The notes beneath the pieces are model-generated. The model was not told where the DNA came from. It did no database searches and saw only the letters and a list, made by a program, of their open reading frames with translations. A stretch of 40,546 nucleotides of DNA from an uncultured Ruminococcus sp. (GTDB lineage Bacteria > Bacillota > Clostridia > Oscillospirales > Acutalibacteraceae): the NCBI GenBank assembly GCA_902767845.1, contig CACXIV010000016.1:1-40546 (forward strand), written 5' to 3'. Numbering within the stretch: the stretch's first letter is position 1; each line of letters starts with the position of its first letter. Of the stretch, positions 5,980 to 40,546 are shown piece by piece. A program made the translations under genes and the position numbers.

Positions 5980-6096
5980 GTTGGTGTTGATGACGCTGAG
6001 GGTCCACCTGTTCCCATACCGAACACAGAAGTTAAGCTCAGTGGTGCCGAAAATACTTGGCTGGCGACGGCCCGGGAAAATAGGGAGATGCCAACA
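5980..6096 (+). rRNA. rrf: 5S ribosomal RNA
   Basis: About 117 nt with hallmark 5S blocks: GGTCCACCTGTTCCCATACC and CGAACACAGAAGTTAAGCTC, then GCGACGGCCCGGGAAAATAG-like and GGGAGATGCCAAC ends. Helix I is formed by GTTGG (5980-5984) and CCAAC (6091-6095). Ends are inferred from this pairing and may be off by a few bases. No 16S or 23S gene is near, so this is an orphan 5S gene with its own promoter. Confidence 0.93.
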
Positions 6097-19071: not shown

Positions 19072-19151
19072 TTTGAATGGTTATGTGGGCTGATTTGTTC
19101 AGCGCCTTATCCGTAGTAAAACAGCCTCTTTTTGAAAGGAGAAGCGGAGAC

Positions 19152-19295
19152 TGTTAGCGCCCGGACCGTTTACGGTTGACGAGGAATGGCGGTTATCGAA
19201 AGATTCGGCGGATGCCGTCACGGCAGCAGCGTGTCGTTAGGGAGAAAGAAAAAAGCAGAATCAAAACTGTAACAAAGGTTCTCTTTTCGCTGTAA
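19152..19295 (+). ncRNA. glmS ribozyme
   Basis: The conserved glmS catalytic core is recognisable in order: AGCGCCCGGAC at the cleavage site (predicted between A19156 and G19157), the ACCG-TTTA-CGGT hairpin, TTGACGAGG, the GGTTATCGA block, TTCGGCGGATGCCGTC and GTTAGGGAG. A P4-type stem (GAGAA with TTCTC) around AAACTGTAACAAAGG follows. The ribozyme binds glucosamine-6-phosphate as a coenzyme and cuts its own mRNA, lowering expression. It fills the 350-nt gap before nagB together with the promoter. Ends are approximate. Its usual downstream gene is glmS; here it is nagB. Confidence 0.9.
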
Positions 19296-37838: not shown

Positions 37839-38168
37839 TTGCGTGACTGCACAAGATATGCGATGAAGCGGGAGGTTGCGGCCGTCTGGCCGGTTTTTCC
37901 GTGGAGTATGTCCGATTTTAAACCGGGCGATTTTAATTGAAAACACTGAGTATAACTGCGGCTATTAGGGTTGCTTTGCCATAGCTATGCTCAAACGCTT
38001 TCAGGACGTCCCCGGTTAACTGAACGGTTAAACGGGTTTTTTAATGCAGGGTGAGGAAACACCCGGCAGAGTTTCAAAAACTTTCACGACGAAATGAAAG
38101 CGAAACGCCCGCCTACAAGACAGCGTTCGCGAAAGCTTACGCTACCAAAATTTTAAGGAGGCGACGAT
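37839..38168 (+). promoter_or_regulatory. Long structured leader of the S10 operon
   Basis: The 535-nt gap between the adenosyltransferase gene and rpsJ carries no gene. After the promoter the leader contains: a GC stem CGGCC/GGCCG (37879-37892) followed by GTTTTT; a hairpin TGAGTATAACT/AGCTATGCTCA (37947-37993); an intrinsic-terminator-like hairpin at 38011-38042; GGGTG/CACCC (38049-38064); CTTTCA/TGAAAG (38081-38100); and an AGCGT/ACGCT stem before the SD. The order suggests attenuation control, possibly by a ribosomal protein as L4 does in E. coli, but I cannot match the structure to a described leader. Confidence 0.6.
38011..38042 (+). terminator. Attenuator-like terminator in the S10 leader
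   Basis: CCCG-G-TTAAC (38011-38020) pairs with GTTAA-A-CGGG (38027-38036), with one G-A mismatch, followed by TTTTTT. It sits about 125 nt before rpsJ, inside the transcript, so it must be conditional if the operon is expressed from the upstream promoter. Confidence 0.75.
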
Positions 38169-38486
38169 ATGGCAGTCAAGGAAAAAATCAGGATAAGATT
38201 AAAGGGTTATGATCACCAGCTGGTTGATCAGAGCGCCGAGAGGATCGTGGCGACAGCAAAGCGCACAGGCGCAAGGGTGTCGGGTCCCGTACCTCTCCCC
38301 ACAGAGAAGCAGATCGTTACTATTCTCCGTGCTGTTCATAAGTACAAGGACAGCCGCGAGCAGTTCGAGATCAGAACTCACAAGCGTCTTATCGACATTT
38401 TAAGACCGTCAAACAAGACAGTCGAGGCTCTTATGAGCTTAGAGCTCCCTGCCGGTGTTGATATCGAGTCCGGAGCCCGGAAATAA
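38169..38486 (+). CDS. rpsJ: Ribosomal protein S10 with altered C-terminus
   Basis: Small-subunit protein of the 30S head and transcription antitermination factor (NusE). The 105-aa protein begins [19 protein letters not shown] and contains [16 protein letters not shown] and the NusB-binding region. The family normally ends VDIEIKL or similar, whereas this one reads VDIE-SGARK. The last codons and the stop are contained in the start of the 139-nt repeat element at 38471, so the tail appears to have been replaced by it. SD AAGGAGG lies 6-8 nt before the ATG. First gene of the S10 operon. Confidence 0.96.
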
Positions 38487-38609
38487 CGACCGGCGAGGAC
38501 TAAGCAATTAAGGAACTCAAACCGATAAAATCTATCAAAAAGAGTTCATTAATTGATTAGACGAGTGGAAGTTATTTACGGAACAGCGGAGGACAACGAA
38601 GCGTGACAG
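38471..38609 (+). ncRNA. Structured 139-nt element, copy 1 (rpsJ-rplC)
   Basis: 117 of 139 positions match copy 2 at 40274-40412, without gaps. Helix P1 is CCGGAAATAAC (38477-38487) with GTTATTTACGG (38571-38581). Helix P2 is CAATTAA-G-GAACTC (38505-38518) with GAGTTC-A-TTAATTG (38542-38555), closed by a 23-nt A-rich loop that is the most variable part. The P1-P2 internal loop (GACCGGC.AGGAC and GACGAGTGGAA) is almost invariant. Two P2 base pairs covary between copies. The 5' strand of P1 contains the rpsJ stop codon. Not recognised as a known RNA family; no terminal inverted repeats or target duplication seen. Confidence 0.75.
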
Positions 38610-38649
38610 AGAGATTTCAGGTACCAACCTACAAGCAGACAGGGTAAAT

Positions 38650-38664
38650 GTTGGCACAGCCAAC
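38650..38664 (+). promoter_or_regulatory. Hairpin upstream of rplC
   Basis: GTTGGC (38650-38655) pairs with GCCAAC (38659-38664) across an ACA loop, between element copy 1 and the rplC SD. A nearby ACCAACC could pair with GTTGG instead. No T-run, so it is not a terminator. Confidence 0.4.
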
Positions 38665-38691
38665 CAATAACCTAAAAGGAGGATAAATTCC

Positions 38692-39324
38692 ATGCAAAAA
38701 GCAATCATCGGTAAGAAAATCGGCATGACACAGATTTTCGATGAAAAGGGAAGAGTAGTTCCCGTAACTGTTGTCGAGGCAGGCCCCTGCGTGGTAACAG
38801 CCAAGAAAACAGTTGAAAACGACGGCTACGCGTCCGTACAGCTCGGATTCGGCGACTTAAAGCCCAACAAGGTCAACAAGCCTATGAAGGGATTTTTCGA
38901 TAAGTCCGGCGTAGCACCCAAGAAAACTCTCAAAGAGTTCCGTTTTGCCGACACAGACGCCTACAACGTAGGCGACCTCGTAAAGGCAGACGTATTTACC
39001 CCCGGCGACAAGATCGACGTAACCGGCAAGAGCAAGGGTAAAGGAACCGCGGGCGTAATCAAGAGATGGAACTTCCATCGCCTTAAAGAATCCCACGGCA
39101 CAGGCCCCTGCGTACGTCACGGCGGATCGATCGGCGCCTGCTCCTCGCCCTCAAGAGTTTGGAAGGGCAAGAGAATGGCGGGTCACCTCGGCGCAGAGCA
39201 GGTAACGGTTCAGAACCTCACAGTCGTAAAGGTTGACGCAGAAAACAACCTCATCGCTGTAAAGGGCGCTGTTCCCGGTCCAAACAAAGGAATCGTTGTA
39301 ATCAAAGATTCCGTAAAGGCTTAA
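38692..39324 (+). CDS. rplC: Ribosomal protein L3
   Basis: Early-assembling 50S protein near the peptidyl-transferase centre. The 210-aa protein starts [19 protein letters not shown] and contains [16 protein letters not shown], the [25 protein letters not shown] loop in pattern, and [13 protein letters not shown] near its end. SD AAAAGGAGG precedes the ATG by 7 nt. It is separated from rpsJ by 205 nt, which is unusual for the S10 operon and is occupied by element copy 1. Confidence 0.98.
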
Positions 39325-39341
39325 AGGAAGGGGGATTATAA

Positions 39342-39965
39342 ATGCCAAGTTTATCAGTAGTAAATATGGAAGGCAAGAGCGTAGGTACTATCGACCTTGC
39401 TGAGTCCGTATTCGGTATTGAGCCTAACGCTGCGGTTATGCACCAGATGGTAGTCAACTACCTCGCGGCACAGCGTCAGGGCACACAGTCCGCTCTTACA
39501 AGAGCAGAGGTTTCCGGCGGCGGCAAAAAGCCCTGGAGACAGAAGGGCACAGGCCGCGCCCGTCAGGGTTCGACAAGAGCTCCCCAGTGGACGCACGGCG
39601 GCGTAGTATTCGCTCCCAAGCCCCGCAGCTACAAATTTACAGTCAACAAGAAGGTCAGAAGACTCGCTATGAAGTCCGCCTTCTCCGTAAAGGCTCAGGA
39701 AAACAACATCATCGTTGTTGATTCGATCGCTCTTGACGAGTTCAAGACAAAGAAGATCGTCGCGATGCTCAAGGCTATCGAGGCAGAAAAGAAGCCTCTG
39801 ATCGTTCTTGACAGCGCAGACAAAAAGGTAATCAAATCCGCTGCCAACATCCCCGGCGCAAAGACGACTCAGGTTAACACCCTGAACGTTTACGATATTC
39901 TCAACGCTGAGAAGCTCGTTATCGTCAAGGATGCGGTAAGCAAGATTGAGGAGGTATATGCATGA
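39342..39965 (+). CDS. rplD: Ribosomal protein L4
   Basis: 50S protein lining the exit tunnel; in E. coli it also represses its own operon. The 207-aa protein starts [18 protein letters not shown] and has the tunnel loop [23 protein letters not shown] in pattern (about 63-85). SD AAAGGAAGGGGG precedes the ATG. Its TGA overlaps the rplW start (ATGA). If L4 regulates here, the attenuator in the rpsJ leader would be its target, but that is untested inference. Confidence 0.98.
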
Positions 39966-40255
39966 TAGCTCACGATATTATCATCCGCCCCATCATCACC
40001 GAAAAAAGCATGGCGGGCGCGTTAAATAAAGTGTATACCTTTGAGGTAGCAAAGACAGCTAACAAGATCGAGATCGCTAAAGCTTGCGAAGAGGTCTTTA
40101 AGGTTAAGGTTGAGAAGGTCAACACCCTTCAGGTTCGCGGTAAGTTCCGCCGTCAGGGCAGGAACAACGGCGGCTACACCAGAAGCTGGAAGAAAGCCGT
40201 TATCAAGCTTACGGAAGACAGCAAGCCTATCGAGTTTTTTGAAGGCATGATGTAA
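39962..40255 (+). CDS. rplW: Ribosomal protein L23
   Basis: 50S protein at the tunnel exit that docks trigger factor and SRP. The 97-aa protein starts [15 protein letters not shown], has the [19 protein letters not shown] and [15 protein letters not shown] segments and a normal end, [10 protein letters not shown]. The start overlaps the rplD stop by 4 nt. Unlike rpsJ, its C-terminus is unaltered; element copy 2 begins 18 nt after the stop. Confidence 0.98.
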
Positions 40256-40273
40256 GTGCGAAGAGCTGAGGCG

Positions 40274-40412
40274 CGGAGCCCGGAAATAACGACCGGCTAG
40301 GACAAAGCAATTAAGAAATTCAAACCTTATAAAAACAATAATAAGAATTTATTAATTGATTTGACGAGTGGAAGTTATTTTCGGAACAGCGGAGCGCAAC
40401 GAGGCTTGACAG
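40274..40412 (+). ncRNA. Structured 139-nt element, copy 2 (rplW-rplB)
   Basis: Same length as copy 1 with 22 mismatches, about half of them in the loop. P1 is CCGGAAATAAC (40280-40290) with GTTATTTTCGG; P2 is CAATTAA-G-AAATTC with GAATTT-A-TTAATTG (40308-40358). Relative to copy 1, G-C 38513/38547 becomes A-U and C-G 38516/38544 becomes U-A, two compensatory changes. Downstream, before rplB, lie two small hairpins (GCCGAA/TTCGGC and GGGAAA/TTTCCC) with no T-run. Confidence 0.75.
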
Positions 40413-40502
40413 CACGAAGCCGAATATCCTTAAGTTCGGCAACAAAGTAGTTATGGGAAACGCCATTTCCCGCAAAACCATCATGAGGAGAGTGAAATCA
40501 CA

Positions 40503-40546
40503 ATGGCAATTAAGGTTTATAAGCCGACTATCAACTCAAGAAGAAA
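40503..40546 (+). CDS. rplB: Ribosomal protein L2, 5' fragment
   Basis: Only 14 complete codons are in the window, reading MAIKVYKPTINSRR. This matches the L2 N-terminus (MAIKKYKPTTNGRR in many bacteria), and rplB is the expected next gene of the S10 operon. AGGAGAG lies about 10-12 nt upstream. It is cut by the end of the window. Confidence 0.9.
   Translation, partial: MAIKVYKPTINSRR

Follow-up and report, generated by a model that had tools for sequence, protein, structure and literature searches.

A dispersed, genus-restricted structured repeat family with two copies in the S10 ribosomal protein operon of a Ruminococcus genome

The window analysed here, a 40,546-nucleotide stretch corresponding to exactly one contig of an uncultured Ruminococcus sp., ends within an S10 ribosomal protein operon, where rpsJ (S10; 38169..38486), rplC (L3; 38692..39324, used as a tblastn query), rplW (L23; 39962..40255) and the start of rplB (L2; 40504..40546), which is cut by the contig end, are all encoded on the forward strand. 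Two similar sequences occupy the rpsJ-rplC and rplW-rplB spacers. The initial annotation placed them at 38471-38609 and 40274-40412, equal in length and 84% identical, and these values were reproduced (117 of 139 positions); the boundaries, however, cut off the lower helix, as the true start of the element lies about 15 nt further upstream. A covariance model of the family, R1, assigned copy 1 to 38456..38610 (+ strand; 102.8 bits, E 3.4e-27) and copy 2, which is complete, to 40259..40413 (+ strand; 124.7 bits, E 9.9e-34), both copies being rows of the model's training alignment. When copy 1 was used as a BLAST query, copy 2 was recovered at E 5e-42.

Searched against Rfam 15 at the gathering threshold, the whole window matched only 5S rRNA (5980-6096), the glmS ribozyme (19145-19294) and the S10-Clostridia leader RNA (RF03136; 37855..37930, + strand, 50.6 bits against a gathering score of 35.1), a separate known element; a search of 38100-40546 at E up to 10 returned three weak matches, none within an element. 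A known Rfam family was ruled out at both thresholds; the family, unrecognised at first reading, matches no Rfam entry with either copy, and the hit to a known family that might have explained it was not found.

When the sense strand of each copy was folded, none of 200 shuffles did as well in either case; the z-scores were -4.27 and -4.61. Between the copies, pair 43-77 changes from G-C to A-U and pair 46-74, in the same helix, from C-G to U-A, in agreement with the two compensatory changes claimed at the outset; a third double change converts pair 31-89 from U-A to A-U (all in 139-nt numbering, read by eye), and two further ones fall in the lower helix outside the first boundaries (alignment pairs 15-141 and 16-140). 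The folding scores and compensatory changes thus uphold the proposed pattern of a structured RNA.

Copy 2 begins 3 nt behind the rplW stop codon (40253-40255), and its lowest helix may be extended by 4 bp through pairing of GTGC (40256..40259) with GCAC (40412..40415), both read from the sequence of the forward strand. Comparison of pairs revealed that the 5' arm of copy 1 is truncated and fused into rpsJ; alignment pairs 7-151 to 9-149, as well as 13-145, are broken, and the lowest helix is missing because the start of the copy falls within the last rpsJ codons. The S10 protein of the window ends in ESGARK, with the TAA stop codon inside the element (38456-38486), and that of genome G013 (L223), which carries a complete copy at this site, ends in EIKL, as do most other rpsJ products read. 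By this comparison, copy 1 has remodelled the end of rpsJ. In nearest-neighbour comparisons the two window copies were closest to each other (85%), and not to same-site copies elsewhere, and they are therefore within-genome paralogues. Besides these two full copies, the genome carries a 44-nt piece with which contig C24 begins; on that contig, tandem, hairpin-like repeats of ~70 nt separate the element fragment from two tRNA-like sequences (L040, about 140-480).

The R1 model was built from 29 aligned copies with a hand-written structure of 42 pairs. The element is ~133 nt long, or up to ~156 nt with a long apical loop, and forms an unbranched, rod-shaped hairpin. From the base inward, the rod starts with a helix of 5 bp and a tandem G.A pair, followed by a helix bearing an AA bulge and by a GNA/GNA loop that is symmetric; after 2 bp and an AANA bulge comes a long helix that covaries (CCU...AAC pairing with GUU...AGG). 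Another tandem G.A pair leads into a short helix that has conserved wobbles and one bulged G, beyond which CGAG opposes CGAG, forming a further tandem G.A, and CUAA/UUAG is topped by a variable tip that is either short or long and A-rich. A kink-turn was considered and rejected; kink-turns have no pair between bulge and G.A, whereas pair 13-145 occupies that position here.

Among the 29 copies, 25 of the 42 pairs were changed on both sides, and the covariation score of 0.354 was reached by none of 500 shuffles (mean 0.136). Paired cells amounted to 91.7%, against at most 41.4% in slid versions of the structure; as the structure was derived from the same sequences, the test favours it over the slid versions. 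A measure of further pair types was weaker, with 25 of 500 shuffles scoring as high. In 134 aligned copies a median of 90% of pairs were standard, and eight tandem G.A positions were each retained in 89 to 129 copies. G.U cells outnumbered A.C cells by 357 to 105 (261 to 103 without two wobble columns), indicating that the conserved fold is that of the sense RNA. The termini, 5' [G/T]AAG (77 G, 33 T) and 3' GA[C/T]A (77 C, 32 T), vary together in number; the T-type 5' terminus includes a TAA of its own, and eight contexts use this as the stop codon. The copies of L085 and L186 differ by one broken and four doubly changed pairs.

Of 59 genomes searched by BLAST with copy 1, 11 had matches, the window's own among them, and all 11 belonged to one genus. 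At E 0.01, R1 matched 86 of 161 genomes of this genus (Ruminococcus bromii and relatives); beyond it there was no match, the only matching genomes in draws from the order (394 genomes) and the class (391 genomes) being three and one, respectively, from the window's genus. The order and class searches scored eight candidates per genome under stricter filters, which weak relatives could escape. Nine genomes searched more deeply gave 2 to 21 matches each (82 rows in total), from 2 in G000 to 16 in G060 and 21 in G155. A core pattern was found in 31 stretches of named records, among them R. bromii ATCC 27255, Ruminococcaceae bacterium P7, Lachnoclostridium sp. MSJ-17 and many rumen and gut MAGs. 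Carriage by phages or plasmids was rejected, as two patterns had no match among viral contigs and no plasmid matched. One unannotated GenBank record labelled 'Bacteriophage sp.' (MT838463.1; L295) contains a copy that is 75.4% identical; it is probably mislabelled bacterial DNA, because its open reading frames read by eye as bacterial, Trk-type and RarA-like, and resemble chromosomal genes of the R. bromii type. The literature searched contained no description of the family, although an earlier prediction of it, without a name, may exist in a human-microbiome RNA survey available to us in part (PMC8040213).

Occupancy of the S10 operon was surveyed across the genus. A full or contig-cut copy followed rplW in 23 of 95 genomes; 21 of these were full or nearly full and lay no more than 5 nt from the stop codon, with the others further along the spacer (G109) or cut at the contig end (G178, 50.6 bits). 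Remnants stood behind rplW in three more genomes (G134, G166 and G112). The rpsJ-rplC spacer contained copies in six of 91 readable genomes, including a shortened one (G144) and one cut at the locus edge (G114), and remnants in two; copies also lay just before rpsJ in G065 and G169, with a remnant there in G030. Most rpsJ-rplC and many rplW-rplB spacers without a copy measured ~70-110 nt, to which the element adds ~130 nt. To this extent the operon is as compact as first supposed, although some copy-free spacers are longer through unrelated inserts. Five rplW-rplB spacers (L194, L209, L218, L219 and L223) share an insert of ~150-200 nt with CTTCGTCAAAAATCCTCG-like text, which looks like a second, unrelated repeat using this spacer. 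In several rplW-rplB spacers (e.g. L085, L186, L236 and L240) the flanks of the inserts can pair (AATACT with AGTATT and the like), which suggests, from the sequences, that an older outer stem directly behind the rplW stop codon may host the inserts.

One of the functions first suggested was that of an r-protein-binding site regulating the S10 operon through rplC and rplB. The element does recur in this operon, and copies were also found 11 and 13 nt behind L10 leaders. A ribosomal protein leader, however, would be expected to be confined to r-protein operons and to keep its place there. The element is not so restricted; it adjoins many unrelated genes, most genomes of the genus lack it in their S10 operons, and the S10 leader of the genus is a different, known RNA (RF03136). 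Regulation of this kind is already largely refuted, and we regard it as highly improbable.

The neighbouring genes were diverse. Copies lay in rRNA operons and beside tRNA genes, and Pfam matches among adjacent products included EF-G, EF-Tu, LepA, IF-1, S7, L36, S13, RimP, KhpA, RpoB, NusA, RNase J, SecA, DnaK, DnaJ, GroEL, HrcA, ParA, ParB, aspartokinase, dUTPase, HPr kinase, class II (fructose-bisphosphate) aldolase and glutamate dehydrogenase, as well as LRR, CotH, dockerin, CBM26, amylase-domain and transporter proteins. In G155, where 18 contexts were kept from the 21 matches, nine touched translation, transcription or chaperone genes and three more touched aldolase, glutamate dehydrogenase or HPr kinase. 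Neighbouring genes had higher codon adaptation in four of four genomes, although significantly so only in G155 (p 0.0008; G060, 0.26; G075, 0.17; G031, 0.16). Given such unrelated neighbours and the absence of copies from the S10 sites of most congeners, the element is a genus-restricted, dispersed, array-forming repeat family that is not specific to the S10 operon.

Several observations indicate mobility. In G060 and G155, several copies are ~95% identical although the 60 nt upstream of each are no more alike, when aligned, than unrelated DNA, and this, with the empty sites, implies that the element has moved; of the ideas first put forward, the one in best agreement with this dispersal is a small, mobile, structured element that r-protein operons tolerate. 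Tight tandem arrays with a period of about 131-136 nt occur (e.g. in G015, G031, G167 and G178), often followed by truncated copies. Apparent orthologues were limited to G015/G033/G113 and, separately, G096/G167; other same-site copies were nearer to copies elsewhere, and junctions were therefore probably filled more than once, or copies replaced. No consistent target-site duplication was seen by eye at element junctions and S10 spacers; A/T-rich sequence precedes the element, and position -4 is A in 68 of 112.

Neither of two candidate mobilisers accounts for this spread. A Y1 transposase (Pfam PF01797) was present in 12 of 28 genomes and absent from G000, G060 and G155; an RVT_1 reverse transcriptase was present in 14 of 28, with none in G031, G060 or G155. 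As the presence of either gene was uncorrelated with copies among the 28 genomes, a REP transposase or reverse transcriptase was rejected as mobiliser. We also considered movement at the RNA level, in which the element would join transcripts in RNA form and be restored to DNA through cDNA or by recombination. Such a route would produce sense orientation and a preference for abundant RNAs, and it is consistent with the sense bias described below, the junctions at stop codons and RNA ends, the many abundant host RNAs (rRNA, tRNA and the transcripts for r-proteins, EF-G and chaperones) and the lack of Y1 transposase in G000, G060 and G155. The missing RVT_1 genes in G031, G060 and G155 argue against it all the same, copies just behind promoters and behind terminators fit it less well, and no base-pairing rule with the target was found; we consider it very unlikely. 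An extended form, to which we assign a low probability, is a protein-less element whose folded transcript would be joined to the ends of abundant RNAs or to gene junctions and would return as a sense copy; highly transcribed operons would thereby collect it, and the host would use it as intercistronic punctuation.

Position relative to genes was determined for 136 places, reduced to 122 by keeping the first of each array and then to 113 distinct contexts, with genes called by a simple caller of our own; the loci, chosen among the better matches and in a small number of copy-rich genomes, are not independent. In 39 of the 113, the element started at a same-strand stop codon with a gap of -31 to +3 (20 at 0 to +3, 19 overlapping). 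Six began 3-6 nt behind a tRNA or 23S end, 14 lay behind a hairpin with a T-rich tail, 53 fitted none of these classes and one was at an edge. In random non-coding controls, which exclude overlaps and include unmasked rRNA, a same-strand gene ended 0-6 nt before 53 of 1193 positions, and a terminator-like hairpin preceded 163 of 4000. Among same-strand upstream genes, 39 of 74 ended within 3 nt of the element start or overlapped it; S10 sites contributed 11 of the 39 (two of them nearly identical orthologues), and 28 of 63 remained without them. The stop codon was TAA in 36 of the 39, against 533 of 724 in the background, a mild preference.

Between co-directed genes, 55 copies were sense and 10 antisense (binomial 1.2e-8). 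Abutment was one-sided as well; 0 of 21 element 3' ends lay within 6 nt of the stop codon of a facing gene (Fisher 2.4e-6), and 0 of 26 element starts lay within 6 nt of the start of a divergent gene. The P values treat loci as independent, which is true only in part. Taken with the G.U excess, the sense bias and one-sided stop abutment indicate that the RNA and its place in the transcript matter.

A site for RNA processing or stability was weighed at this point, whether cleaved by an RNase III-type enzyme or blocking exonucleases so as to define 3' ends. Copies stand 3 nt behind tRNA-Ile and tRNA-Ala and 4-6 nt behind the 23S 3' end, with others upstream of 16S, and the long, rod-like helix would suit such a role; the internal G.A loops, however, break the duplex about every 5-10 bp, the rRNA operons of most relatives carried no copy in an unsystematic look, and sites in 5' untranslated regions and behind terminators need no such processing. 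We consider it unlikely, and nothing in the analysis argues for either RNA processing or a ribozyme, both of which the initial annotation had raised. In L185, L187, L188, L191 and L192 a copy lies 12-16 nt behind the presumed start of promoters that share a TATACT box. These five loci, together with L128 and L122, have similar promoter-like sequence ahead of the copy, containing a TATACT-type box and a CACAG-like start; it could represent either a promoter class in common or a portion of some longer repeat. Other copies lie behind what we take to be a CIRCE-like operator before hrcA (L182) and, presumably, parS-like palindromes (L127 and L132).

Known repeats and structures resemble the element in part. 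Group IIC introns insert behind terminators, as some copies do, but the element has no Rfam intron domain match, stands behind stop codons with no need of splicing, and is abundant in the most copy-rich genomes, which lack RVT_1. Integron attC sites share with the element an imperfect hairpin form, conserved internal loops and a variable tip; its AAC/GTT boxes nevertheless appeared, by eye, to be internal rather than terminal, and no cassette open reading frames were seen between tandem copies (period about 132-136 nt). REP sequences are ~35-nt simple palindromes with a GTAG-type foot. Like the REP/BIME repeats of enterobacteria, the element is short, dispersed, extragenic, palindromic, hairpin-forming, found in arrays and often placed just behind stop codons; it differs in being a ~133-nt covarying, multi-loop rod with tandem G.A motifs, in its strong sense bias and in the lack of a Y1 (RAYT-type) transposase from the most copy-rich genomes, G060 and G155, and no GTAG-type foot was seen in its terminal columns. 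REPs within 15 nt of a stop codon are reported to lower translation (PMC12306157). Ribosome termination structures, stable mRNA structures immediately behind stop codons that reportedly govern re-initiation (PMC7518266), share that placement with the 39 stop-adjacent contexts only; they are a positional class with neither sequence identity nor mobility, whereas the element is one homologous mobile family that also lies behind rRNA, tRNA and promoters. The TAACTGA direct repeats of marine Beggiatoaceae are likewise dispersed and intergenic, some overlapping stop codons and some in r-protein operons (PMC4679880), but they are heptamers with no predicted RNA structure and no sequence relation to the element.

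Because the post-stop position is analogous to that of REPs near stop codons and of ribosome termination structures (PMC12306157, PMC7518266), we favour the interpretation that this is a new REP-like family of mobile structured RNAs acting as a post-stop insulator and/or decay barrier, and judge from the sequences that it has about an even chance of being correct. Copies would spread through machinery acting in trans and would persist mainly in active operons, at places where the folded RNA punctuates the transcript behind a coding region or a structural RNA. The RNA would most likely fold once the terminating ribosome has left, and could then limit ribosome run-on or re-initiation and block 3' exonucleases, in a manner similar to that reported for REPs and for ribosome termination structures. 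We also predict that the G.A loops are likely to be recognised by a dedicated RNA-binding protein.

Some of the data sit less comfortably with an insulator or decay barrier. The 53 contexts in no class count against it, the 14 copies behind terminators may escape transcription from the upstream gene, high expression of the neighbours was significant by codon adaptation in one genome of four, and the orthologous copies of G015, G033 and G113 have more broken (4-5) than doubly changed pairs (1-2). Patchy occurrence and remnants are as compatible with a decaying selfish element as with a useful one. A miniature element that is purely selfish or passive, its structure retained solely for recognition by the mobilising machinery and its positions reflecting tolerated insertion, ranks next, as a possible but less probable explanation. 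In its favour are the mobility, the arrays in tandem, the patchy presence, the remnants left by deletion at S10 sites (G134, G166, G112, G108 and G109) and the absence of a copy from any given S10 site in most genomes of the genus; the strong sense bias and one-sided stop abutment (39/74 versus 0/21) would not be expected from tolerance alone, and the G.U excess points to the RNA sense strand.

That the family is mobile although the genomes richest in copies show neither a transposase nor a reverse transcriptase raises the question of how such repeats spread. Whichever way they do, a homologous RNA module at dozens of gene ends within one genus, accompanied by natural empty sites and deletion remnants, amounts to a natural experiment on the effect of post-stop structure on translation, re-initiation and decay. 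R. bromii is a keystone degrader of resistant starch, and some copies of the family adjoin dockerin, CBM26 and amylase-domain genes.
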